Positions 1-10,146 of a DNA stretch of 10,146 bases are shown in pieces. Origin of the DNA: an archaeon (GTDB lineage: Archaea > Nanobdellota > Nanobdellia > Woesearchaeales > JAGVOV01). How positions within the stretch are numbered: position 1 is the first letter of the stretch; each line of letters opens with the position of its first letter. The DNA is taken from assembly GCA_020052545.1 (NCBI GenBank), contig JAGVOV010000006.1:1-10146 (forward strand), read 5' to 3'. The notes beneath the pieces are model-generated. The model was not told the origin of the DNA, did no database searches, and saw only the letters and a list, made by a program, of their open reading frames with translations. The position numbers and the translations under genes were made by a program.

Positions 1-256
1 CTGCCAGACAGCATTCAGAATTGCAGAAGTCTATCCAGTGCTGTGGATAATAATCATCTGTCTCTGTGCCTGGCGGGTTTGGACCATCCTGGGTCAGCAG
101 TACCGATTCACATGAATCTTGTGTCGGCGGTAATGTGTCTATAGTTATCTTGGAATTCGTGCATGTGGCTGGATTATCTGTCCTGGGGAGCACCGCATTC
201 ACAGCAAAAGCTAGTACAAACAGCATCAATACCGCTAAAATAATCTTACTTCGCAT
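1..256 (-). CDS. Secreted cysteine-rich protein B', N-terminal part (runs off left edge)
   Basis: Only the first 85 codons are in the window. The product begins MRSKIILAVLMLFVLAFAVNA, a clear Sec-type signal peptide (basic start, about 15 hydrophobic residues, AxA-like cleavage near residue 21), so it is exported. The mature part has the motif YYPQHWIDFC...CC around residues 66-83. This matches YYPNSWYDYC...CC at residues 59-76 of the 844-aa protein encoded at 734-3268, so the two are paralogues at least at the N terminus. The ATG at 254-256 lies inside the end of the upstream gene (11-bp overlap) and has no convincing Shine-Dalgarno site, so translation probably depends on coupling to that gene. 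It is the fourth gene of the A-B-A'-B' operon. Function unknown; likely an extracellular disulfide-bonded surface protein. Confidence 0.78.
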   Translation of the reverse strand, partial: MRSKIILAVLMLFVLAFAVNAVLPRTDNPATCTNSKITIDTLPPTQDSCESVLLTQDGPNPPGTETDDYYPQHWIDFCNSECCLA

Positions 257-737
257 TTTGCTGGCAAAAATCTTTCAGTTCCTGATTTGATATAGACAAG
301 CAGAGATTTGCATCTTTTGTAGACATCGCTGTCGACACCAAGATTTCGTCCCTACAGCTGTTCCTTATATCCATTGTCACGATTGAATTGCACTTGGCTA
401 TGTCATTCTTCACGATTGCCTCACTCTTCGTCAATTCATCATTGCACGTTTGTGGGTTCTTTGCTGAAGCGCATGCAGATTCATCTCTTGTTGTGATGGC
501 CTTGTTCGTGCTCGCTTCCTGAAGGCATCTTGACTTCTCAGGCTCCGACAAAGAATTGCAATCTACTGTGTTTGTCAATAAAGGTTGGACTGTTGTGGTG
601 ACCTTGACAGTTGTCGGAGTGGTTGTTGTTGTGGCTGGTCCCTTCTGGCCTGGTGACAAAGACAATACTAAGTAAACAGCTATGATGACAACCAACACTA
701 TGCCCAATATCGCCAGGCCTGACAACGCTTTTTTCAT
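246..737 (-). CDS. Membrane-anchored four-cysteine-pair repeat protein A'
   Basis: This 163-aa protein starts MKKALSGLAILGIVLVV, giving one N-terminal membrane segment (about residues 6-27) that anchors it with the rest outside. A threonine-rich linker follows (about 36-50, TTTTTPTTVKVTTT). Then come four cysteine pairs at residues 60/71, 89/98, 116/128 and 146/158, each pair spanning 10-13 residues and recurring every 27-30 residues, with motifs such as IRNSCRDE and KDANLC. The same helical-looking repeat occurs in the first gene of the operon (3265-3873). An ATG six bases further upstream (743) would put the AGGTGG site directly against the start. The ATG at 735-737 is preferred because it forms an ATGA overlap with the stop of the 844-aa gene and leaves normal spacing to AGGTGG. 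I do not recognise a named family. Probable role: surface partner or anchor of the cysteine-rich B proteins (inference from operon order). Confidence 0.82.
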   Translation of the reverse strand: MKKALSGLAILGIVLVVIIAVYLVLSLSPGQKGPATTTTTPTTVKVTTTVQPLLTNTVDCNSLSEPEKSRCLQEASTNKAITTRDESACASAKNPQTCNDELTKSEAIVKNDIAKCNSIVTMDIRNSCRDEILVSTAMSTKDANLCLSISNQELKDFCQQNAK

Positions 738-3268
738 GTGCATCCACCTATAACTGAATTATCCTGTTTTATCTTGCTGTATGGGACATCGCAATCGTAG
801 CCGGCAGCCTGGCTGACGCAGTCCTTTGTTGCTATGGAAGCGGAGCTAGGGCAATTGTCTGCATCTTTTGCTGTTGGTGGATTTGGATATGATGACAGAG
901 GGCTGCCTGATTTAGCCGAAGTTGGGTATGCCTGGATGCAGTTTCCGCTGAGTGGCGGATTATCTGACTCATAATCCGGTGTTCTGCAGTCGCACTGCAG
1001 CGTTGCCGGATTGCATGATCCTGATTCATAATTTGTCGATGATGTTTTATACAGGCCGCAGTCTGCCACCAAAGCATCATTGTCGACTGTCGCTGCTAAA
1101 CCATCATCATCTGCACACGCTCCAGAGCTACATGTAAAATTCTGCGTGAAGACTTGTGTGTCTGGGCATGATCCTAAAGTGCATGATGCCTGAACTGTGT
1201 CATGCGTGTTTGTTGGTCTGACCTGGCCACCTGTCGTGCAGTAATTGGAACTAGTGCCGCATGTATTGCCACTGTTGGCAGCTGCATAACTTGCATCAGT
1301 CCCTGCGCATGAAAGCTGCCTGCATGATGTGTCAAAGCCTGAATTCTCAAGTGTTGTGTCGCAGTTCCCTGAGCAGCATATGCCGCTAGTGCATGCAGTC
1401 AAGTCTGTGACTGCTGACAGGCCGCATACTGTCGCGCTCTGGTCTGTCGCATGCTCGGCTGTCAGCGGACAGGTCACATCGCCGCAGGCGCCGTATGTGT
1501 CCGGGCAGGTCTTCACGACTGAGTAGCCTGTCCCAAATGAATCGCATTTCCTGTATTCAATCGTGCCAGTTGACGAGGCTTTTTCGCAGAAATATTGGTT
1601 TGGTGTGCAGACTGCTGCTACGCATTGAGAGCCGTCCCATGTCTGGCCGGCAGAACATGATTTGCATGCGCCATTCTGGCAGTAGTTAATGGTGCCGAAA
1701 GCGCCGCAAGTTGCAAGAGTTGCTTCTTCAACACCTGCAGGATTTGCTGCCGGAATCTGCCACTGTCTCACATAATAGTAATCAACGCCGCCGGAATTGG
1801 CAGTATAACATACATCATTATAATCTGTTGCCGAAGTAGCGCATGATCCCGTGGTGCATGAGGTGAAATCTGTGACTTTCTCCGCAGCAAATTTGTTCGG
1901 CGTAGCTCCATAAGTCTTTGTGCTGGCCTTCAATGTGCAGTCCTCATAAGAGCAGCTTATGCCGCATGTCGCATCTGCATAAAGGTTTACTTCGCAGCCA
2001 TTTGACCTCAAGTTGCCGTCACAATTGTCATAGCCTGTGCTGCATGATGTTTTTGCACAGCTGCCAGAGACGCATGAGCCCCCGACAATATTGCTTGTGC
2101 TGCATGCCCATCCTGAGCCGCAGCCGCCGCAGTTGTTGGGGTAAGCGGTATTGATATTTGTCTCACAGCCGTCTGAGCGTTTGTTGCCATTGCAATCGCC
2201 GTAACCTGTACTGCATGCTCCAGATTCACACGAGCCCAAAGAGCATGCCCTTGCTATGTTGCTTGTGCTGCAGGCTGCGCCGCAGCCGCCGCAGTTGTCG
2301 ACATCTGACGGGAGGTAAGATTCACAGCCGTCTCTTGCTGTGTTTTCTACGTTACAGCTTGCATAGTCTGTGTTGCAGTTGACATAGCATACACCTGAAG
2401 AGCATGTTGTTTGAACTGTGTTTGCAGTGCCGCATGCTGCGCCGCAGGCGCCGCAGTTGCTGATTTCAGTCTGATAATTTGCTGTGAGCGTTGCGGTGCA
2501 TATTGGCGGCTGTGACGGATCTATCGCGTCGTTGCAGGTGACGTCGCCGCATGCGCCGTATGTGTCTGCGCATGAACTGGAATAATCCCATGTTGAGTCT
2601 AAGCAATAGTATATATCGATAGCATCTGGTGATGAGGGGGCGGCGCAGCCAAATTCATACTGGACCCCCGAAGTCCCAGCCTTGCCGCAGACAGCGCTTG
2701 AAGAGCTGCAATAGCTAAATCCATCTGGCCCTGGCCTGCAGAAGTGGCCAGTGATGCAATCTAAGTCCACAGAACATGCGATGCCATCATTAGATTTGCA
2801 GGCGCTTGAACTACATGTTTGAGTGACAGTGCATACATTCAAGCAGGCGCCGCAGTTGCTGTTGTCTGTGGTCAAGTCCTTGCATATTCCGCCGCAGTTA
2901 GTGTTTGGTGAGCATGAACATGCGCTTGTTTGGCAAGTTGCTCCGCCGGTGCATACTGTGCCGCAGGCGCCGCAGTTGCTGCTGTCTATCTGCAAGTTTG
3001 TGCAGAAAGATGTTCCGCTATCTGGACACACACTATATGAGCAGCATCTGTTGTCTGCCTGGGGATAACAATAATCATACCAGGAATTAGGGTAATATAG
3101 TGGTGATTGGCCGTTATTGTAGCCGTAATTGTCCATTATTGATGTACAACTTGTCGTAGCCCCATCAACATAAAACCCAAAACTTGAGCATCCGGTATTC
3201 CATGCGACAACAGAACCCGAAAAAACTATAGCGAAGAGCAATGAAGCTAAAAGAAATTTAATTTTCAT
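734..3268 (-). CDS. Secreted 844-aa cysteine-rich repeat protein B
   Basis: The protein has a signal peptide (MKIKFLLASLLFAIVFSGSVVA, cleavage near residue 22) and no later membrane segment, so it should be secreted. I count about 94 cysteines (11%), implying heavy disulfide bonding. Visible modules are: a YYPNSWYDYC...CC N-terminal module (59-76); five NCGACGxxC or NCGGCG elements at about 99, 139, 272, 326 and 380; two longer repeats with GYxxCxGNxRSxGCExN (about 355-372 and 412-429); two DTYGACGDVTC modules (235-245 and 590-600); and a C-terminal module with DCVSQAAGYDCDVPY (816-830). NCGxCGxxC repeats of this kind occur in secreted proteins of several bacterial groups and DPANN archaea; no enzymatic motif is seen. 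The start overlaps the upstream stop as ATGA and is preceded by GGAAAGGA. Its 3' end makes another ATGA overlap with A'. Likely an adhesin, surface-coat or host-contact protein; function not established. Confidence 0.88.
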   Translation of the reverse strand: MKIKFLLASLLFAIVFSGSVVAWNTGCSSFGFYVDGATTSCTSIMDNYGYNNGQSPLYYPNSWYDYCYPQADNRCCSYSVCPDSGTSFCTNLQIDSSNCGACGTVCTGGATCQTSACSCSPNTNCGGICKDLTTDNSNCGACLNVCTVTQTCSSSACKSNDGIACSVDLDCITGHFCRPGPDGFSYCSSSSAVCGKAGTSGVQYEFGCAAPSSPDAIDIYYCLDSTWDYSSSCADTYGACGDVTCNDAIDPSQPPICTATLTANYQTEISNCGACGAACGTANTVQTTCSSGVCYVNCNTDYASCNVENTARDGCESYLPSDVDNCGGCGAACSTSNIARACSLGSCESGACSTGYGDCNGNKRSDGCETNINTAYPNNCGGCGSGWACSTSNIVGGSCVSGSCAKTSCSTGYDNCDGNLRSNGCEVNLYADATCGISCSYEDCTLKASTKTYGATPNKFAAEKVTDFTSCTTGSCATSATDYNDVCYTANSGGVDYYYVRQWQIPAANPAGVEEATLATCGAFGTINYCQNGACKSCSAGQTWDGSQCVAAVCTPNQYFCEKASSTGTIEYRKCDSFGTGYSVVKTCPDTYGACGDVTCPLTAEHATDQSATVCGLSAVTDLTACTSGICCSGNCDTTLENSGFDTSCRQLSCAGTDASYAAANSGNTCGTSSNYCTTGGQVRPTNTHDTVQASCTLGSCPDTQVFTQNFTCSSGACADDDGLAATVDNDALVADCGLYKTSSTNYESGSCNPATLQCDCRTPDYESDNPPLSGNCIQAYPTSAKSGSPLSSYPNPPTAKDADNCPSSASIATKDCVSQAAGYDCDVPYSKIKQDNSVIGGCT

Positions 3269-3873
3269 GCTGTCCTTTCCTTGCAGCTGCTCGCCATAAT
3301 AGGATTAGAGATCTCAATGCAGAGCTTTGAGTCTTTCTTTCCCAGCGCCTCTGACATTATGAGATTATCACGGCAGCTGCTCTTTATCATAGGATTCGAG
3401 ATCTTGTCACAGGACAGTATGTCTGATGTCGAGAAAGCTATTGCCATGACAACATTGTCGCGGCATGAGTCCACGCTATTGGTGTCCTTGCATTTAGATA
3501 TGTCCTTCTGCAATATCGCCTGGTTGAAATTGACCTCTTTGAGGCAGCCGCCTTGCTGGTCTTTTGGCATATCGTAGCAGCCTGCAGCATCAATCTTTGG
3601 TATCAAGACATTTGGCGTCTCCTGGCTCTGCCTGCCGCTCCTCACAACCAAAAGTATTATGACAAAGACCAAGGCCAAGACAATAGCTGCGATGCCGAGC
3701 TTTGACAGAAGGCCTTTCTTCTTGTAATGGGATACATGGCGATCGACGAAATCGTAAGAATGCCCAGAATCATGCAGCTTTTCCTTTATCTGGTCCATGG
3801 TGAAGCCCTTGTCCAGCTGAGCCTCTATATAATTAAGCATCTCCCTTGAAATGTGCTCCTCTTTTTTGGCCAT
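3265..3873 (-). CDS. Membrane protein A with cytoplasmic helical domain and four extracellular cysteine pairs
   Basis: First gene of the operon, 202 aa. Residues 1-55 are cytoplasmic and contain YIEAQLDKGFTMDQIKEKLHD, a small helical motif of the 'KGxxxxQIKxxLxxxG' type found at the N terminus of many DPANN membrane proteins. A single transmembrane helix follows at about 59-77 (LGIAAIVLALVFVIILLVV). The outer part has four cysteine pairs (99/110, 128/137, 155/167, 185/197) within repeats such as SNPMIKSSCRDN and SNPIMASSCKER. These match the repeats of A' (246-737) in number and spacing, so A and A' are paralogues; A' lacks the cytoplasmic domain and has a Thr-rich linker instead. The ATG at 3873 has GGGGAG five bases upstream and a TATA box at 3901-3910. 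The cytoplasmic domain could bind a partner or signal inward, which is speculative. Confidence 0.85.
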   Translation of the reverse strand: MAKKEEHISREMLNYIEAQLDKGFTMDQIKEKLHDSGHSYDFVDRHVSHYKKKGLLSKLGIAAIVLALVFVIILLVVRSGRQSQETPNVLIPKIDAAGCYDMPKDQQGGCLKEVNFNQAILQKDISKCKDTNSVDSCRDNVVMAIAFSTSDILSCDKISNPMIKSSCRDNLIMSEALGKKDSKLCIEISNPIMASSCKERTA

Positions 3874-3944: not shown

Positions 3945-4342
3945 TTAAAGGAGTGACAGAAAATCCTTTGGTTTCGCTATTTTGATGCCTTTGATACTTC
4001 CAAGCCTCAGTAAGTGCTTGTCGTAAGTTATGAGATAGTCTGCTTTCCCATCCATAGCGCAGGCAATGATATTATTATCGGCTAAATCTTCTGGAATAGC
4101 ATCGACAATCGTCTCTGGCTCTATGATGTTCAATAAATTAGATATCATGACCAAATATTTCTTAATCTCATCATGACTAAAACCAAAATCCCTCGATAAG
4201 ACGTTAGAATATTCATCCAAAATAAAGGTGGAAGACAGAAAAATCTCCTTTTTTCAATCAGCCTGGGCAAGAGTTTCTGTGACTCGCTGCCTTGCCAAAG
4301 TGTGGCAGAAACCAGGAAATTAGTGTCTAAAACCACCCTCAT
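3945..4342 (-). pseudogene. PIN-domain toxin (VapC-like), split by a one-base frameshift
   Basis: The first half reads MRVVLDTNFLVSATLWQGS (conserved N-terminal Asp of the PIN active site in DTN) up to RLIEK. The second half, in the -1 frame, reads EIFLSSTFILDEYSNVL, then SHDEIKKYL, DLADNNIIACAMDGKADYLI and LITYDKHLL, the usual PIN end with acidic residues in place. The halves join perfectly if one base is added in the six-A run at 4249-4254 (plus strand TTTTTT), giving about 132 aa, a normal length for this family of Mg-dependent RNases. As written, translation from the ATG at 4342 ends soon after the run. GAGGAGAAGG precedes the start, and the gene overlaps the antitoxin gene by 23 bp. Possible explanations are a real inactivating deletion, a homopolymer error in the assembly, or -1 slippage on the A run. 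Confidence 0.85.
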
Positions 4343-4598
4343 CAAGCCTTCTCCTCTGTACGATGTTTGGGATGTCCCCTTCTTTGATCCCTTGGCTTAA
4401 TAAGCGTTGCTTGCCTTCAACCGCAATCCTTTCGAGCTCTTTGAAAAGCGTCTCTTTTGATGGTAAATTTATCCTTTTAAGGATTATAGTATCTTCCGAA
4501 CCTTCGACAGCAAAGACTGTTCCTTCATCTGCCTTCAGCTTTTCTCTTAGCTCTTGAGGAATCACAATCTGGCCTCTTGACGACATTTTTGTTATCAT
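4320..4598 (-). CDS. AbrB/SpoVT-type antitoxin of the PIN toxin (VapB-like)
   Basis: This 92-aa protein begins MITKMSSRGQIVIPQELREKL, the classic swapped-hairpin AbrB DNA-binding fold ('SSxGQxxIPxxxR'), followed by EGSEDTIILKRI. The C-terminal half (about 45-92) is charged and helical and would wrap the PIN toxin. In this family the antitoxin neutralises the toxin and represses its own promoter. It lies directly upstream of the PIN gene with a 23-bp overlap. The start at 4598 is chosen because a TATA box lies about 28 nt upstream, giving an essentially leaderless mRNA. An alternative is the ATG four codons later at 4586. Confidence 0.9.
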   Translation of the reverse strand: MITKMSSRGQIVIPQELREKLKADEGTVFAVEGSEDTIILKRINLPSKETLFKELERIAVEGKQRLLSQGIKEGDIPNIVQRRRLDEGGFRH

Positions 4599-4631
4599 AT
4601 TATCTTATTATAAGATAATCTTATATTTATA
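4599..4631 (-). promoter_or_regulatory. VapBC-like promoter with overlapping palindromic operator
   Basis: A perfect 10-bp inverted repeat with one central base (ATTATCTTAT-T-ATAAGATAAT, 4599-4619) abuts the antitoxin ATG. It shares its right arm with a second palindrome, ATAAGAT-A-ATCTTAT (4610-4624). Three alternating 7-bp half-sites therefore lie 8 bp apart (4602-4608, 4610-4616, 4618-4624). The minus-strand TATA box is CTATAAATATAAG (4620-4632 region), about 28 nt from the ATG. An AbrB dimer or a toxin-antitoxin complex bound here would cover both the TATA box and the start of transcription; the autoregulation itself is inferred from family behaviour. Confidence 0.7.
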
Positions 4632-4646
4632 GTTTTCTATGATTCT

Positions 4647-4663
4647 AAGCAGAAAAATTGCTT
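4647..4663 (-). terminator. Possible weak hairpin terminator after the nucleotidyltransferase cassette
   Basis: On the minus strand AAGCA and TGCTT form a 5-bp stem around a loop containing five T residues, 14 bp after the stop of the 56-aa gene. Archaeal termination relies mainly on T runs, so this is plausible but weak. Confidence 0.25.
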
Positions 4664-4676
4664 CTGGGGTGATAAC

Positions 4677-4847
4677 CTACCCTTTCATCTTAAGGAACTG
4701 TTCCTTTGTCATCTTCGTCTTGAGGCAAGAATTGATGATTTTGTTCTGCTGCCTGCTCCAAGTCTTGTCATCATGCTCTAGGACGTATTTCGACCATCTG
4801 TCTATGAATTCCAGCCTTTCCTTCTGGTTTTCCTCAGTAAATTTCAT
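4677..4847 (-). CDS. Small 56-aa partner of the nucleotidyltransferase
   Basis: The product starts MKFTEENQKERLEFIDRW and continues through SKYVLEHDDKTWSRQQNKI to the end KEQFLKMKG. It is charged, soluble and probably all helical, with a distinctive WSRQQN stretch. The ATG at 4845-4847 lies within the last codons of the upstream nucleotidyltransferase gene (14-bp overlap in the +1 frame), so the two are co-transcribed and probably coupled. I do not recognise the family with certainty. The tight overlap with an AbiEii-like nucleotidyltransferase suggests the second half of a two-gene toxin-antitoxin style cassette, although in most such pairs the small gene comes first. Confidence 0.6.
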   Translation of the reverse strand: MKFTEENQKERLEFIDRWSKYVLEHDDKTWSRQQNKIINSCLKTKMTKEQFLKMKG

Positions 4848-5409
4848 CCAGCATCGCCTTGTATCTTTTGATGAGCTTTATGTTTAGGCCCTTTTTCACG
4901 TTCCTCAAGTGCCGTGCATCCTCCATGTCTTTTTGTGACTTTAAGACCGCCTCCTTGAACGCTATCTCCAGCTCAATGTTTGAGATTTTCAGCTTTTCCT
5001 TGCCCAAATCCACAGTTATTTTTGTGCTAAGAGCTATCTTATCGGCTTTTGTTTTTGCCCACTTCAGCTCAATGTTGGGGATTGCCGTCCTTTTTTCAGC
5101 GAACCGGATCGCAAACTTGCTTTCCCAATAGCTGAATATTTCCTTGTCAGTCTCTGCGTTGAGGCAATAAAACCCTTTCTTCTTCAAATCTTTCAAAATC
5201 TTCTTAAAAACATTGAAGCTTATTTTTGGGATTATTATATCGACATCTTCGCTTGCCCTTGATCTTCCTAACAGAATCGCGACATAACCGCTTACTATGA
5301 CATAGTCTACATGCTTGCTCAGGATCCTGACAAATTTCAGCGTGAATTTATCGAGGTCTGAAAGCTGCCTATCGACAGCTATAATGTTTTTATAAAATTT
5401 CATGTTCAT
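4834..5409 (-). CDS. Nucleotidyltransferase of the AbiEii/AbiGii-like group
   Basis: The 191-aa protein contains YVIVSGYVAILLGRSRASED (about 36-55) followed by VDIII. This is the motif G(G/Y)xAxxxxGRxRxSxDxDI of the pol-beta superfamily proteins related to AbiEii-type toxins, with D55 and D57 as the metal-binding pair. A helical C-terminal half follows, including IELEIAFKEAVLKSQKDMED and ARHLRNV, where related proteins have 'K...SxKDxxD' motifs. Some members transfer nucleotides to tRNA or proteins as toxins; others have unknown substrates. ATG codons at 5409 and 5403 are both possible. Neither has a strong ribosome site, and a TATA box lies at 5445-5451. The gene overlaps the 56-aa gene downstream. 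Confidence 0.72.
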   Translation of the reverse strand: MNMKFYKNIIAVDRQLSDLDKFTLKFVRILSKHVDYVIVSGYVAILLGRSRASEDVDIIIPKISFNVFKKILKDLKKKGFYCLNAETDKEIFSYWESKFAIRFAEKRTAIPNIELKWAKTKADKIALSTKITVDLGKEKLKISNIELEIAFKEAVLKSQKDMEDARHLRNVKKGLNIKLIKRYKAMLDEIY

Positions 5410-5444
5410 GAATAACGCACCATGATTTTTAATGTTTTTGCTAG

Positions 5445-5451
5445 AATATAA
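5445..5451 (-). promoter_or_regulatory. TATA box of the nucleotidyltransferase cassette
   Basis: TTATATT on the minus strand, about 39 nt before the ATG at 5409. This predicts a transcript start near 5422 and a leader of about 13 nt. A weak GGTG at about 5418-5421 could serve as the ribosome site. The preceding 30 bp after the MazF-like stop hold no other clear signal. Confidence 0.45.
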
Positions 5452-5482
5452 GCCTGGCGATGGTTTGTCCTGTGTATCCGAC

Positions 5483-5806
5483 TTAACTGAAAAGTCCTGC
5501 GATTCTTTCCTGTATTGTTTCGATCTTCTCTTTTTTTATTGAACCGAGCCTGTAAGCTATTATTGATTTATCCGCCGTGAATATCTTGGTTATCCTGACA
5601 TAACTCATCAGATTGAGCTTGCCCTGCGACAATTCGCTGCCTGAGATTTCCACTGAATCCTCTTTTGGCTGGCTTGTGATCTGGCACAGTATCAGGTCAT
5701 CTCCTCCAGGAGCTGCTGCCACATAGGCCGGCCTCTTTTTGGAGCTGCTAAGGTCTGAAAATGGGAATGGCAGCACGACAATGTCGCCCTTCACAAATCC
5801 TTCCAT
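5483..5806 (-). CDS. mazF: MazF/PemK-family endoribonuclease toxin
   Basis: This intact 107-aa protein begins MEGFVKGDIVVLPFPFSDL, followed by SSSKKRPAYV. That is the PemK/MazF signature GDIVxxPFPFxDxxxxKxRPxxV, including the conserved Arg-Pro. LILCQITSQ, SYVRITKIFTADKS and LGSIKKEKI follow, matching the rest of the SH3-like fold. Members are ribosome-independent mRNA interferases that cut at short single-stranded sequences. The ATG at 5806 has a strong GAGGAGG site, and the gene overlaps its antitoxin gene by 16 bp. Among the three toxins of this island with a recognisable RNase fold (PIN, MazF, HEPN), this is the only one that is complete. Confidence 0.9.
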   Translation of the reverse strand: MEGFVKGDIVVLPFPFSDLSSSKKRPAYVAAAPGGDDLILCQITSQPKEDSVEISGSELSQGKLNLMSYVRITKIFTADKSIIAYRLGSIKKEKIETIQERIAGLFS

Positions 5807-6039
5807 GCTTCATCCTCCTCTTTTGTGCTCCATTCTTTCGCAAGAGACTCCTCGCTGGCCAAAGCAGTGGCAAACCTGTCGCTGATCTGATCCAGAGGCC
5901 TGAGCTCTATACGGTCATTAAAAGAGATTAATGCGATCTTGGTGCCTTCCTCAAAGCCTTTTAATTTCCTTGCCTCTTTGGGGATCGCTATCTGGCCCTT
6001 CTCTGTTATTGTTGCAGTCCTTATTCCAATTAATGACAT
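5791..6039 (-). CDS. mazE: AbrB-type antitoxin of the MazF toxin (MazE-like)
   Basis: The 82-aa protein has an AbrB DNA-binding domain at residues 7-50: TATITEKGQIAIPKEARKL, then GTKIALISFNDRIELRPL. An acidic helical tail follows (about 52-82, SEESLAKEWSTKEEDEAW), which in such antitoxins occupies the toxin groove. An in-frame ATG lies 20 codons upstream (6099), but the ATG at 6037-6039 is preferred: AAGGTGA lies five bases before it and the TATA box at 6072-6081 falls inside the longer version. It overlaps mazF by 16 bp. Expected to bind MazF and to repress its own promoter through the palindrome at 6052-6065. Confidence 0.87.
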   Translation of the reverse strand: MSLIGIRTATITEKGQIAIPKEARKLKGFEEGTKIALISFNDRIELRPLDQISDRFATALASEESLAKEWSTKEEDEAWKDL

Positions 6040-6043
6040 ATAT

Positions 6044-6081
6044 TCACCTTGTCTTACTTGTAAGATGCTGTTATATTTAAA
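6044..6081 (-). promoter_or_regulatory. MazEF-like promoter with TCTTAC/GTAAGA operator and RBS
   Basis: A TATA box (TTTAAATATA, 6072-6081) predicts transcription starting near 6050, right at the AAGGTGA ribosome site (6044-6050). A perfect inverted repeat TCTTAC-TT-GTAAGA (6052-6065) lies between the TATA box and the start, an ideal place for autorepression by the AbrB antitoxin. The same half-sites recur at 6206-6211 and 6237-6242. Confidence 0.62.
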
Positions 6082-6205
6082 CTTGTCGGCTTGGTCCATA
6101 TAGAACCTAGGGTCTTTTGGGTTAATAAGTGTTCTCGGTCTTTTTCCGTATTATTTTCGGTAAATCTTCCCCTTGCCAAAGTGTGCACATCTTCTTTCAT
6201 ACTAG

Positions 6206-6316: not shown

Positions 6317-6868
6317 CTAAATAAACTCTTCTTTCCTCACTATCGGGAAAAGCTCAAATTCCCTTGATTCATAATAGATCTTCCAGGTGTTAAGCAAATC
6401 GATGAACTCGTTTTTCATCTCAATCGGGATTAACACAGCTGCCCTTGTCAGTACCTCTCCTTTATTCTTGAGTAAGTTTTTGATCCCGCGTGAAAACTGG
6501 ACTTTCTGCACAGGATTTAGGCCTTTAAGCGAATACTTGAACAAAACGACGGGTTTAATATTATATAAATCGTGGAGAAACAAATTTTTTCTGACGCTGA
6601 AACCTTCCTTTATCAATGTCGGCCAGAGGGTCGAATATATTGATTCAGCTGCTAGCAACGTGATGTCGGCATTCTCTATTTTTTCCTTTATCCTGCTTTT
6701 TAGTCCGGCAGTATTGGGACTTTTGGAGATCACAGCTATGTCTACATCATTCGCATTGCCCCCTTTGGCCAGAGAGCCGAAGATGATGAAGTCTGCGACT
6801 TCGTCACTTAATAGCACGCTTAACTCTTTCTGACAATCCTGCAGATTCCGCAATTTTCTTGACTGCAT
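6317..6868 (-). CDS. MNT-type nucleotidyltransferase, partner of the HEPN protein (MntA-like)
   Basis: The 183-aa protein carries the minimal nucleotidyltransferase motif FIIFGSLAKGGNANDVDIAV at about residues 27-46. G31-S32 and the acidic pair D41/D43 are clear, and ENADITLL supplies a third acid near D68. The C-terminal half (about 95-183) is longer than in minimal MNT proteins and is mostly helical, with RGIKNLLKNKGEVLTRAAVL. Known MntA partners of HepT toxins neutralise them by AMPylating a tyrosine near the HEPN active site, which is the likely role here. The ATG at 6868 is supported by AAGGTGA four to five bases upstream. It lies 65 bp inside the 3' end of the restored HEPN gene, a longer overlap than usual. 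Confidence 0.83.
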   Translation of the reverse strand: MQSRKLRNLQDCQKELSVLLSDEVADFIIFGSLAKGGNANDVDIAVISKSPNTAGLKSRIKEKIENADITLLAAESIYSTLWPTLIKEGFSVRKNLFLHDLYNIKPVVLFKYSLKGLNPVQKVQFSRGIKNLLKNKGEVLTRAAVLIPIEMKNEFIDLLNTWKIYYESREFELFPIVRKEEFI

Positions 6869-7165
6869 CTTTCACCTTTTCGCATGTTTCTTTTAAGACT
6901 GGTTTTGAATAAGCATCCGTATAGTGAGAGAATATCTCATCGACAATCCCATAAATGCTGGTGAAATCTGCTCTAAAATCCTAAACCTTTCAGTGTGGTT
7001 TTTTGGCAGGTGCCTAAGGCTTTGAAATATCATTATGTCACAAAGCGCAAATACTGCCTTAGACAGGAGGATTGTTGCATTCTTGTAGTGCTGCTTGTTC
7101 AGCTGCTCAATACCCCCTTCATATTCTTCGATGAAAGTTTCCTCTAAATCGTCTAAGGTTGCCAT
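6804..7165 (-). pseudogene. HEPN-domain toxin (HepT-like), split by a one-base frameshift
   Basis: The start reads MATLDDLEETFIEEYEGGIE, then HYKNATILLSKAVFALCDI and LRHLPKNHTERFRIL. It contains R-H-L-P-K-N-H, fitting the Rx4-6H catalytic motif of HEPN ribonucleases. In the deposited frame it then degenerates and stops at 6893. In the -1 frame the domain continues naturally: RADFTSIYGIVDEIFSHYTD, AYSKPVLKETCEKVKDAV, KKIAESAGLSERVKRAIK, stopping at 6804. Adding one base between about 6960 and 6980 (for example in the AAAA at 6975-6978) restores a 120-aa protein. Unlike the PIN gene there is no long homopolymer and no good slippery site. Its stop lies inside the MNT coding region, as expected for a coupled HEPN-MNT pair. 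A TATA box 26 nt upstream makes the mRNA leaderless. Confidence 0.83.
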
Positions 7166-7353: not shown

Positions 7354-7368
7354 CGAAAGATTTAAATA
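7354..7368 (+). promoter_or_regulatory. Canonical archaeal BRE/TATA promoter of the 752-aa protein
   Basis: CGAAAGA (7354-7360) followed by TTTAAATA (7361-7368) is a near-ideal TFB recognition element plus TATA box. The TATA centre is about 27 nt from the ATG at 7392, predicting a leaderless transcript. This is the strongest single sign in the window that the host is an archaeon, and it shows that the bacterial-looking gene is driven by an archaeal promoter. Confidence 0.8.
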
Positions 7369-7391
7369 GTAGAAAGTCTATGAAAGAGGCT

Positions 7392-9650
7392 ATGGAGCTT
7401 GATTTGGTAGGCAAGGCTAGGGAAGCCTTCAGGAAGCTGAGATTTGAGCTTGATGTAAGGAAAGAGTTCTATCTAGGTGGCGTTACATTCAAAGATGTTG
7501 TCAAAGGCTTGGGAGCTGCTGCTCCTATGCTTGTTCCTGGAATGGCGGTTGCTTACGAGCCTTTACCAAGCACAGTTTACGAAAGGCATATTGATGATTT
7601 GGGCATTGAAGCTACAAAATTAGAGAAGAATGCTGCCGGCAATATAACAAGCATAACAGGAAAAATTAAAGACAATGCAGGGAATCCTCTTGCAGCAAAA
7701 TTTGTCGACATCTTCTATACTGACACGAGCGCCGTGCATCTTAAGGACACTACAAAAGTTGATGGGAGCTTCTTTGTGAAGAGGTCAACAACTGGGGTTG
7801 AGCAGATTGTTAGTGCTATACCTGACGGATTCGCCCTGACAAACAATTATCCTAATCCTTTCAACCCTTCAACAAATATTGAATTTTCAATCCCTTCAGG
7901 GTCGCATGTGACACTGAAAGTGTTTGACCTGCTCGGAAGAGAAGTGGGGACTTTTGCCGACGGCGATTTCAATTCTGGAAAGTACAAGGCGACTTTAGAA
8001 CTGAACGGCCTTGCAAACGGCGTCTATTTTGCCGTGTTCCATGCAGAGGAGAAAAATACTGCTGACGGAAAAAACCAGGCGTTTGATAAGGTCCAGAAGC
8101 TGCTGCTCCTTTATGGAAGCCAGCATAACACTAATCCTGTCCATGAAGCTGTAAAGGTTGGTGAGGTGGGTAATGTAAGTCATAATTCAAATCTTCAATC
8201 CACGAGTCCTGGTGCATCAGATTACCAGCATCTTTCAAAGTCAGCAACAACAAAGATTGACAGCATAATTGTTTCTGGAACAGGGATAACAAGGACAAAG
8301 CTTGTCAATATCCCTGTCTCATCCGATTCAATCGACTTGGGAAACCTGGTTGTCAACTCGGCTCCGAAACAGACTGTTGCAATTCCGAGCCAGGTGTTGA
8401 GGGAAGTTCTGGATAGCTTGGATATTGACTTAAACCAGTTCGTCTCTAATGACAATGCTACGCAATATGCTTCCCAGAATCCAAAAATCCTCATTGTCGG
8501 CAGCCATGCGAAGTTCAGGCCCGATTCTTCCGATATATCTGGAAATTATACTGTCCGCGCTTTTGATTTGGCAGACACTTCATTGTTCGTCAATCTTGTC
8601 ATTCCTGTCAATGTCCAGCATCCGAACAAGCTGATTGTCGGGCCGGTCTATGATTTATTTACTAAGTTCGCAGGAAAAGTTCCGATACAAGGCATGAAGG
8701 TATATCTTGGAAGCGATGCTTCTAACAGCGCTTTGACTGACGCCAACGGAATGGCCACATTGAAGACCTGGAAGACAGGCAAAGATTCTATCTATGTCGT
8801 GGGCGCGACTCCGGCAGACACGGCATTCTATTTCTGGCATAAAGGGGTTTTTTCATCGTGGAACGGCGGCGGCGAGTTTGATAAGTTTTACATCAAACAG
8901 GGAGACAATATCGTGAAAGCTTTTGGTGACACCACTGGCATCCCGACTTGGCAAAGAAAAAATTATAGGCAGGTTAGTGCATATAAACAGACTAATGGCG
9001 GTAATTTGACCGGAAATCCTGGAGACACGGTCAGCATAGACCTGCTCGATTGGCTGATAAAGATGGAATACACAAGTAACAGTGGCGCCATTGTGACGCC
9101 CGTCACATATTTCGCGAATGATTCTGTCTACATCAATACAAAGCCCAGGATAAGAGATGAAGATATGCCGGCAAAAGTCTGGCTTAACAGGAGCAAAGAT
9201 CCGACTGGCGGCTGGTATGCTGATTCGGCCTGGGCTGGTATAAAAGGACAGGAGAATGAAAGGCTGAAATTTATTGAAGTTACAGACAGCACGAGCGCGA
9301 TTGTGAGGGTATTTTATACAAATGGTAATGTTGCTAACAATGTATATATGAATATTGGAAGAGATGCTAATGGGCCTTATCTAAGTGATTGGCATATTAA
9401 TATAAGAGGACCGCCCGGAAGCCAGATATTGCTAGCAGATAGCATTGTATCTTATACCTTAGCGCATGAGGTTGGCCATATGATTAAAACTGTTGGATCG
9501 TTGAGTTCATTTCCTGAAGATATAATGTTTGACCCCGAAGGGCATTTCAACTTGGGGTATAAAACATTTAGGAGCAATAAGGAAGACAAGACATTCAGGA
9601 TAAAATATCTTCTTGAGAGGAATCCTAAGTTGCTTAATTATTTTAAATAA
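7392..9650 (+). CDS. Secreted 752-aa protein with internal T9SS-type sorting-like domain and C-terminal metzincin-like domain
   Basis: The start at 7392 (MELDLVGKAREAF) is chosen because the BRE/TATA box predicts transcription at 7391. In-frame ATGs at 7296 and 7380 lie upstream of it, and 7296 lies before the promoter. Numbering is from 7392. Residues 1-54 look like a long export signal: a charged region with VRKEFYLGG (22-30), then a hydrophobic stretch ending MAVA (51-54); the RK and layout resemble a Tat signal but lack the second Arg. About 84-133 is a carboxypeptidase-regulatory-like beta-sandwich (ITGKIKDNAGNPL...DGSFFV). Residues 147-243 read as a complete T9SS type A sorting domain: FALTNNYPNPFNPSTNIEF, TLKVFDLLGREV, LANGVYFAVF, KVQKLLLLYG. 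A second regulatory-like repeat is at about 426-470 (IQGMKVYLGS...TDANGMATLKT). From about 586 the protein resembles a metzincin: PAKVWLNRS, ERLKFIEVTDSTSAIVRVF, then TLAHEVGHMIKTVG (HEVGH 692-696) and a Met-turn-like EDIMF (M712). The normal third zinc ligand (HxxGxxH) is replaced by HxxKxxG. Probably an extracellular or surface protease or protease-like adhesin. Confidence 0.8.
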   Translation: MELDLVGKAREAFRKLRFELDVRKEFYLGGVTFKDVVKGLGAAAPMLVPGMAVAYEPLPSTVYERHIDDLGIEATKLEKNAAGNITSITGKIKDNAGNPLAAKFVDIFYTDTSAVHLKDTTKVDGSFFVKRSTTGVEQIVSAIPDGFALTNNYPNPFNPSTNIEFSIPSGSHVTLKVFDLLGREVGTFADGDFNSGKYKATLELNGLANGVYFAVFHAEEKNTADGKNQAFDKVQKLLLLYGSQHNTNPVHEAVKVGEVGNVSHNSNLQSTSPGASDYQHLSKSATTKIDSIIVSGTGITRTKLVNIPVSSDSIDLGNLVVNSAPKQTVAIPSQVLREVLDSLDIDLNQFVSNDNATQYASQNPKILIVGSHAKFRPDSSDISGNYTVRAFDLADTSLFVNLVIPVNVQHPNKLIVGPVYDLFTKFAGKVPIQGMKVYLGSDASNSALTDANGMATLKTWKTGKDSIYVVGATPADTAFYFWHKGVFSSWNGGGEFDKFYIKQGDNIVKAFGDTTGIPTWQRKNYRQVSAYKQTNGGNLTGNPGDTVSIDLLDWLIKMEYTSNSGAIVTPVTYFANDSVYINTKPRIRDEDMPAKVWLNRSKDPTGGWYADSAWAGIKGQENERLKFIEVTDSTSAIVRVFYTNGNVANNVYMNIGRDANGPYLSDWHINIRGPPGSQILLADSIVSYTLAHEVGHMIKTVGSLSSFPEDIMFDPEGHFNLGYKTFRSNKEDKTFRIKYLLERNPKLLNYFK

Positions 9651-9652
9651 TA

Positions 9653-10146
9653 TTATGCTGGTACTGTGGTTGTTGTTATGGCCTTGTACCTTGGATCTCC
9701 TAAAGTTTTCTTTCCAGGAGCACTGCCACCTGTAACATATGGCATAAGGCAGCCTGCGCCGATGGCGCCTGCTTGGTCTATACAGTTCCTGTATGTGCTT
9801 GTTCCATAAGGCGGGCAATAGTTTGAAGGGTCTGCACATGGTGCTTGTGGACTATCTTCACAATAACCCCCTGTATTCCAAGTCTGCCCTTGCTGGCAGC
9901 AATTCGCTGAGGCGCATTGCATATTTTGCATCCCATTATAAGCGCTCAAATAACTGCCGCAAGTAGTTCCATCTGCTGATGGCGGGGCAGCGCAAGTCGG
10001 AGTTGCTCCAGTGCCGGAACAGGTGACTGTCCCGCAGACGCCTAGGGTGTCGGGGCATGTCGCGACAGTTGTCCAGGTAAATCCATTTCCTGTACATTGC
10101 TCATAATTGATTGCGCCGGCAGCGCTTGCCGCTGAGCATCGGTATA
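9653..10146 (-). CDS. Secreted cysteine-rich protein B'', C-terminal part (runs off right edge)
   Basis: The reading frame is open from the right edge (it begins ...YRCSAASAAGAINYEQC) to a TAA at 9653, about 164 codons, with no start in the window. It contains ATCPDTLGVCGTVTC, the same module as DTYGACGDVTC seen twice in the 844-aa protein (including the preceding INYEQC / IEYRKC and Trp/Val residues). It also has a C-terminal module STYRNCIDQAGAIGAGCLMP, then Y, matching TKDCVSQAAGYDCDVPY of the 844-aa protein. It ends KAITTTTVPA. It is therefore a third B-type protein, with the signal peptide presumably beyond the edge. Its stop is two bases from the stop of the 752-aa gene, which converges on it. 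Confidence 0.85.
   Translation of the reverse strand, partial: YRCSAASAAGAINYEQCTGNGFTWTTVATCPDTLGVCGTVTCSGTGATPTCAAPPSADGTTCGSYLSAYNGMQNMQCASANCCQQGQTWNTGGYCEDSPQAPCADPSNYCPPYGTSTYRNCIDQAGAIGAGCLMPYVTGGSAPGKKTLGDPRYKAITTTTVPA

Follow-up and report, generated by a model that had tools for sequence, protein, structure and literature searches.

A type IX sorting domain in mid-chain of a woesearchaeal protein, and its recurrence in archaea without a detected translocon

Introduction

The type IX secretion system (T9SS) is a two-membrane secretion machine, and bacteria use a sorting domain as its address tag. The bacterial type A C-terminal domain (CTD) of this kind is a seven-stranded beta-sandwich. 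What is such a domain doing in the middle of an archaeal protein? The question is raised by a 10,146-nucleotide stretch of DNA (hereafter called the window), which is the entire contig C167 of bin G000 (1.1 Mb, 87% complete). An initial annotation, made from the letters alone, placed the domain inside an archaeal secreted protein and proposed horizontal transfer followed by reuse. We find that the striking fact is a broader one: the domain recurs, often at the C-terminus, in archaea in which the T9SS parts sought were not detected.

The accessible portion of PMC4737851 calls TIGR04183, a model of this domain, exclusive to the FCB superphylum. As far as the accessible portions of the open-access literature go, we found no report of the domain or of a T9SS in DPANN, Woesearchaeota or Nanoarchaeota.

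Results

A sorting domain in mid-chain

Both models of the family match the window protein in hmmscan, and both do so above their curated cut-offs. Por_Secre_tail (PF18962) scores 39.3 bits against a cut-off of 27 (E 8.2e-10, profile positions 2–69 of 75), and TIGR04183 scores 32.5 bits against 23 (E 6.3e-8, positions 2–63 of 72). The resemblance is thus more than chance. The match falls inside 7815–8117, where the domain had been placed by eye (Table 1), and the model search that the initial annotation proposed is significant. FlgD_ig (PF13860) is not listed for this domain, and a PDB sequence search with it gave 8glj_D as best match, at E 0.12 only.

The position in mid-chain was also correctly described: about 510 residues follow the domain. 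A functional T9SS cargo has its sorting domain at the extreme C-terminus and ends in lysine. The window domain is not at the end, and the chain runs on from it as KLLLLYGSQH. Thus, the window copy resembles the type A CTD in sequence family, and differs from it in being internal, in an archaeon and in a genome where neither SprA nor Omp85 was found.

Table 1. Features of the window protein and of one neighbouring gene, in positions of the window
Feature	Position	Strand	Basis
Gene of the window protein	7380–9650	+	Open frame from 7296; start ambiguous
BRE/TATA-like candidate, cgaaaga tttaaata	7354–7368	+	By eye
Hydrophobic stretch near the N-terminus; may be an export signal or anchor	7497–7553	+	By eye from the translation
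CarboxypepD_reg-like beta domain	7650–7793	+	PF13620, E 0.013, under the cut-off in the window
T9SS type A sorting domain (Por_Secre_tail)	7848–8060 (genome searches: 7848–8057, 7848–8060)	+	hmmscan and profile search
KLLLLYGSQH linker and downstream region	8097–8414	+	Alignments with Woesearchaeota UBA12459 and bacterial L003/L004
Second carboxypeptidase-regulatory-like region	8634–8849	+	Alignment to P0005 (PF13715 38.0, cut-off 32.2)
Zincin-like C-terminal region	9111–9647	+	Family P0002–P0006, G111, G143; motif table
HEVGH zinc motif	9465–9479	+	Motif table; HExxH present
Conserved end ERNPKLLxYxK	9615–9647	+	Relatives P0002–P0006, G111, G143
202-residue membrane protein	3265–3873	-	Homologous to L155 2361–2984 (G144), phmmer 2e-8

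The gene could start at ATG 7380 (756 residues) or at ATG 7392 (752 residues), and the centre of the candidate TATA element lies 16 nt upstream of the first and 28 nt upstream of the second. Signal-like starts are also visible by eye in P0002, L003 and L004. The first regulatory-like domain passes the PF13620 cut-off in two relatives of the window protein, P0005 and the G111 protein; the second has no Pfam match in the window protein itself.

The C-terminal part is zincin-like, and no peptidase family in Pfam or NCBIfam matches it. Relatives P0004–P0006 share the motif HExxHxxxxxG[EN]HS. The window protein retains HEVGH and has GSLS instead of G[EN]HS, so that the third zinc ligand is not found; HExxH is absent altogether from P0002 and P0003. 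On these motifs, we doubt that the window protein is catalytically active. Across the zincin family the PNPFNP motif of the sorting domain is eroded and the domain region is retained. PF18962 gives 23.4 bits in P0003, 23.3 in P0005 and 20.8 in P0006 (all below 27), and 27.2 in the G111 protein.

Archaeal context

The bin is archaeal and falls in the order of Woesearchaeota UBA12459 (Woesearchaeales); this rests on G345, a genome of that order whose matches coincide with the coordinates of L005, a UBA12459 contig. Ribosomal protein S27e is present in it; an archaeal 16S gene was not found there. The rest of the window contig had been proposed as the place to look for archaeal genes, and this check succeeded only in part, there being no marker gene on the contig itself and S27e lying elsewhere in the bin. 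A complete 10-kb contig without markers might be a bacterial one misplaced by binning, and contamination is real in the genome set, as the bacterial-looking neighbours at L151 (G344), L153 (G023) and L175/L176 (G358) attest. However, proteins homologous to the window protein occur in a named genome, Woesearchaeota UBA12459; the zincin-like part has relatives in G143, in P0002–P0006 and, on a contig of 203 kb, in G111; and the neighbouring 202-residue protein is shared with G144, where its homologue lies close to a gene with an internal sorting domain, on a contig that carries aEF-2. We consider a binning error very improbable, and the archaeal host named by the initial annotation stands.

A phage origin of the window protein was rejected, since tblastn with the protein in a phage collection gave no match.

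Other genes of the window, on the minus strand, were noted in passing. A Cys-rich protein of 844 residues with a signal-like start is flanked by proteins of 165 and 202 residues (246–3873), both of which match L155 2361–2984. A toxin-antitoxin-like run follows at 3945–6099, with Pfam matches to PIN_3, to a MazE-like protein and to a PemK/MazF-like protein with a MazE-like one. At 6317–7165 a nucleotidyltransferase-domain gene stands beside a small gene without a Pfam match, a pair that we presume may be of NTase-HEPN type.

Recurrence across archaea

The window domain is not a one-off. At E ≤1e-5, PF18962 picks up 30 genomes among the 352 of the order, and 15 among the 180 of high quality. In a phylum sample of 371 genomes it picks up 33, with 20 among the 243 of high quality; at least one of the 33 is due to contamination. 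Flanks were examined for 30 of these 33 genomes (G176, G148 and G496 were left out). Judging the neighbours by eye, we put G358 down to contamination, along with G344 and G023 from the order set; G394 (L184) is uncertain. The bacterial-looking contigs within these archaeal bins are G344:C9, G023:C24, and G358:C4 and C22.

As a general explanation, contamination can be rejected. G010 is a single contig of 1.30 Mb with 100% completeness, and its sorting-domain gene adjoins an operon of archaeal ribosomal proteins that also encodes RNA polymerase subunit D. In G054, G066, G502, G514 and G436 an archaeal hallmark gene lies within the same stretch. The hallmark proteins chosen near sorting-domain genes number 10, from 8 genomes: RpoD, eS8, Rrp41, RadA, Dph5, GatE, TFIIB, uS7, the RFC small subunit and aEF-2. 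NCBIfam placed Rrp41 and TFIIB under their curated cut-offs and the remaining eight above. The aEF-2 contig bears the internal version of the domain, and the other hallmark stretches bear the C-terminal version.

A module shared with bacteria

Where did the domain come from? A tblastn scan of named genomes kept at least 79 loci. Nearly all their titles are of Ignavibacteria/Bacteroidota-type bacteria, with one Woesearchaeota among the matches listed. Alignment shows that the window protein, UBA12459 and the bacterial proteins L003 and L004 have an N-terminal module in common over about residues 85–340, made up of the regulatory-like domain, the sorting domain, the YGSQH linker and the region that follows. 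UBA12459 has three tandem genes with the architecture of the window protein (L005 1539–6679), with HE[IL]xSG replacing HExxH; the one of them that was scanned scores 23.1 bits with PF18962, under the cut-off. The bacterial L003 and L004 score 37.7 and 39.2 bits, and L004 stands amid genes that look by eye like ordinary bacterial ones, in a genome with SprA.

This picture is extended by a linker-region profile, which matches in 8 of the 284 genomes of the class of our Ignavibacteriales control, G352 (itself counted). All eight proteins come from frames of 423–759 residues and have their sorting domain within residues 79–194; an internal placement is therefore found in these bacteria as well. 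The presence of the same N-terminal module in this class means that the module was probably transferred ready-made. This speaks against the mid-chain position having been invented in archaea, and that position, which the initial annotation had read as a sign of archaeal reuse, is not one by itself. Proteins of the Ignavibacteria class and of Bacteroidota that have an internal domain (L003, L004, L233–L240) keep the order of regulatory-like domain, sorting domain and YGSQH-type linker. It is the C-terminal parts that differ: Fib_succ_major in L003 and L004, a thioredoxin-like part in L003 and other parts, assigned by eye, in the rest, against a zincin-like part in the archaeal proteins.

A horizontal origin is supported by this sharing and by the domain phylogeny that the initial annotation suggested. 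The window domain groups with those of UBA12459, L003 and L004 with support of 86/98, just under the level that the program stars. The tree has 38 archaeal and 77 bacterial rows. It has 88 columns and a bootstrap that had not settled, and its bacterial rows were picked for their closeness to the window and cut down to a single row for each locus, so that it does not fix the direction and is a weak guide to the donor. One could therefore suppose that the module arose in archaea and passed to Ignavibacteria. We find this hardly plausible: bacterial relatives of the sorting domain are many (at least 533 confirmed in the scan of named genomes), G352 possesses the translocon, and fitting the archaeal rows to the tree takes nine changes of label, two or more of them forced.

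Search for the secretion machine

The machine parts covered by our search were SprA, Omp85 and C25 peptidases. SprA was found in none of 30 archaeal genomes, all from the order and with the window's own (87% complete) among them. The same search gave 1081 bits in G352 and nothing in 14 named control genomes, so that G352 is the sole positive control for SprA. Omp85 was found in none of 31 archaeal genomes, again including the window's own, and was detected in G352 (five matches) and in 7 of the 14 named genomes. C25 peptidases, a group broader than PorU, occur in 4 of 30 archaeal genomes, and are absent from the window's own. As far as these searches go, then, the domain cannot serve the archaeon as a T9SS signal, as the initial annotation had argued on general grounds. 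Since the machine parts looked for were not found in the genome, the domain looks borrowed and reused.

C-terminal tails and constraint

Among the archaeal relatives we could follow the version that lies at the very end of its protein. Our own profile places the domain within four residues of the stop at 29 loci in 21 archaeal genomes. Lys or Arg is the last residue in 26 of these 29 loci, and stands at position -6 in 83% and at -7 in 62%. The corresponding values for 135 bacterial proteins are 99%, 92% and 81%. As background, 31% of 402 other proteins encoded in the stretches have Lys or Arg as their last residue. The count covers loci with fetched flanks, after removal of four contaminant loci, six re-fetched duplicates, L179 (a second copy of L178, in G435) and L184. 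C-terminal rows lacking fetched flanks, among them those of G084, G206, G275, G071, G046, G247, G228 and G148, were left out because contamination was not ruled out there. PF18962 finds two further C-terminal domains that our profile missed: L146 in G010, which ends in Lys, and L154 in G293, which ends in Glu.

The accessible part of PMC10994853 describes an almost invariant lysine near the bacterial C-terminus as functionally important, and the other motifs as setting the fold. According to this cryo-EM paper, what the conserved type A motifs determine is the fold, and not contacts with the translocon, which suits reuse of the domain as a fold.

Not every C-terminal archaeal domain need be a sorting domain. 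FlgD_ig overlaps and outscores Por_Secre_tail in the C-terminal-domain protein of the window's own genome that we call gene C below (46.3 against 32.4 bits) and in L145 of G010 (46.2 against 37.5), and is weak or absent in the other three of the five C-terminal archaeal proteins scanned. With the C-terminal domain of L148 as query, PDB yielded unrelated-looking matches; the strongest was a repeat protein, at a whole-sequence E value of 0.003, and none of its stretches passed by itself.

The domain in these relatives is under purifying selection. Its dN and dS are 0.32 and saturated for L170/L173, 0.26 and 1.97 for L171/L174, 0.68 and 1.32 for L156/L202, 0.54 and 1.21 for L156/L158, and 0.60 and 1.85 for L177/L181; with dS large or saturated for most pairs, the ratios are rough. 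Paralogues in G054 have dN 0.10 and dS 0.49 within the domain, and 0.85 and 1.02 outside it. Compared with the rest of the protein, the domain is more tightly constrained in three of six pairs and somewhat more loosely in the other three.

Two of the C-terminal-domain proteins, L177 2879–4744 and L181 5274–6767, also show by eye dockerin/EF-hand-like loops (GDVNLDGKV, GDVNHDGRTD).

A gene cluster with the C-terminal version

In seven genomes, the window's own included, the C-terminal version is encoded within a same-strand cluster, B-C-D (L148, L156, L158, L202, L170, L173, L159). The order is A-B-C-D in G054, G432 and G436, B-C-D on C45 of the window's own genome and D-C-B-A in G041, G108 and G196. 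Gene C encodes 232–316 residues with a C-terminal sorting-type domain. On L148, D occupies 7911–9221 and C 9243–9968. Gene B (500–615 residues) has regulatory-like and Ig/CARDB-type domains; it has 428 residues in the own genome, where the contig starts inside the gene. Pieces of gene B lie at two contig ends of that genome (G000:C171:9–374 and G000:C45:1–687), and may be one split gene. Gene D (356–530 residues) has no family match over the cut-off, and PDB offers nothing better than E 0.61 for it. Gene A is not a single family; its copies form two groups and one singleton. The B proteins from the nine loci compared are all homologous, and D forms two groups that are weakly tied.

This arrangement raises a different possibility. 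The domain might be a working sorting or anchoring signal that needs no T9SS, by which C docks on an exported partner, D, together with a surface protein, B; the window copy would then be a derived use of the same binding fold that does not sort. Several observations point this way. The same-strand cluster is conserved, and B and D occur together without C in two more genomes. Of 371 genomes, nine have a full-length-type B (E ≤1.6e-46), with D beside it in all nine and C in seven; as seven of these very loci went into the B model, this co-occurrence is partly circular and not an independent test. (Another 102 genomes have local B matches, at E ≥1.7e-15, which among the matches listed fall mostly on the Ig-like part.) The terminal Lys/Arg, far above background, fits as well. 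The accessible part of PMC9143113 describes a bacterial parallel, in which PorP-like barrels of Bacteroidota bind type B CTD proteins and sprF adjoins sprB. Like the archaeal C and D, the SprB–SprF and PG1035–PorP pairs described there set a CTD gene next to the gene of its exported partner; they differ from them in that the archaeal C is type A-like, D has no family match and Omp85 was not found.

Other observations tell against docking. D lacks a convincing PDB match as well as a family, and Omp85 was not found. The two genomes with B and D and no C, G371 and G438, are single contigs each, and the Lys tail could be an inheritance from recent transfers. The two FlgD_ig-leaning proteins, gene C of the own genome among them, need not carry sorting domains at all. 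We also suspected, from C-terminal aromatics in some copies, that D is an outer-membrane barrel; this was not supported, there being no Omp85 and no PDB match. The number of amphipathic strands per 100 residues is 3.0–6.0 in D, 3.8–4.9 in four barrel controls and 2.7–4.8 in five soluble ones, so the index does not separate the controls. On balance we think a docking signal possible but unlikely. A fuller version, in which DPANN archaea would run a T9SS-independent surface display from captured bacterial sorting domains, C docking on D through its Lys tail, with B, and the window protein forming a mid-chain branch, strikes us as decidedly unlikely.

Discussion

We favour another explanation, and with reasonable confidence: the window carries a genuine type A CTD that came in a ready-made module from an Ignavibacteria/Bacteroidota-type donor and was reused as a spacer or docking fold, with no T9SS address. 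Transfer with reuse is probable; the function is what we infer. The donor would have been a bacterium of that type and the recipient a DPANN archaeon, and what arrived would have been the export signal, the carboxypeptidase-regulatory-like domain, the sorting domain and the YGSQH linker together. The protein would probably be exported by Sec over a single membrane to the surface, where the sandwich may work as a spacer or docking domain. The zincin-like domain at its C-terminus may be losing catalysis or be already without it. The sorting domain itself would not act as a T9SS address in the archaeon.

Transfer and reuse are favoured by the occurrence of the module in UBA12459, L003, L004 and the 8 of 284 class genomes, by the grouping of the window domain with those of the first three, by the purifying selection on the domain in relatives, by the survival of the domain region in the zincin family after its PNPFNP motif eroded, and by the failure to find SprA or Omp85. 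Against them stand the archaeal relatives with the domain at the C-terminus, which retain the bacterial Lys tail that a mere spacer does not obviously need, the UBA12459 gene that falls under the PF18962 cut-off, and the C25 peptidases of 4 of 30 archaeal genomes. The initial interpretation is thus supported in its archaeal host, its horizontal origin and, as far as our searches of the machine parts go, its denial of a T9SS role. The domain is not a singular case, however, and its place in the chain does not by itself show archaeal reuse.

The recurrence of the domain in archaea without detected SprA or Omp85 is a natural experiment that sets what the fold does by itself against what the machine requires. 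The terminal lysine is often retained in these archaea, and in seven genomes the domain belongs to a conserved gene cluster. If a DPANN display system did exist, recognition of a sorting domain would need neither the T9SS translocon nor an outer membrane. The recurrence also counsels caution over automatic annotation of such proteins as 'T9SS cargo'.

Archaea have C-terminal surface signals of another kind. An archaeosortase signal consists of a short motif and a transmembrane helix, unlike a folded sandwich. It resembles the archaeal sorting domains in being a C-terminal signal for surface sorting in archaea, and is named in the accessible part of PMC12617251. In G010, a genome with C-terminal sorting domains, two proteins (L145 14686–17395 and L143 11818–12375) end, as judged by eye, in [IV]PE[IM], a hydrophobic stretch and Lys/Arg, in the manner of an archaeosortase signal.
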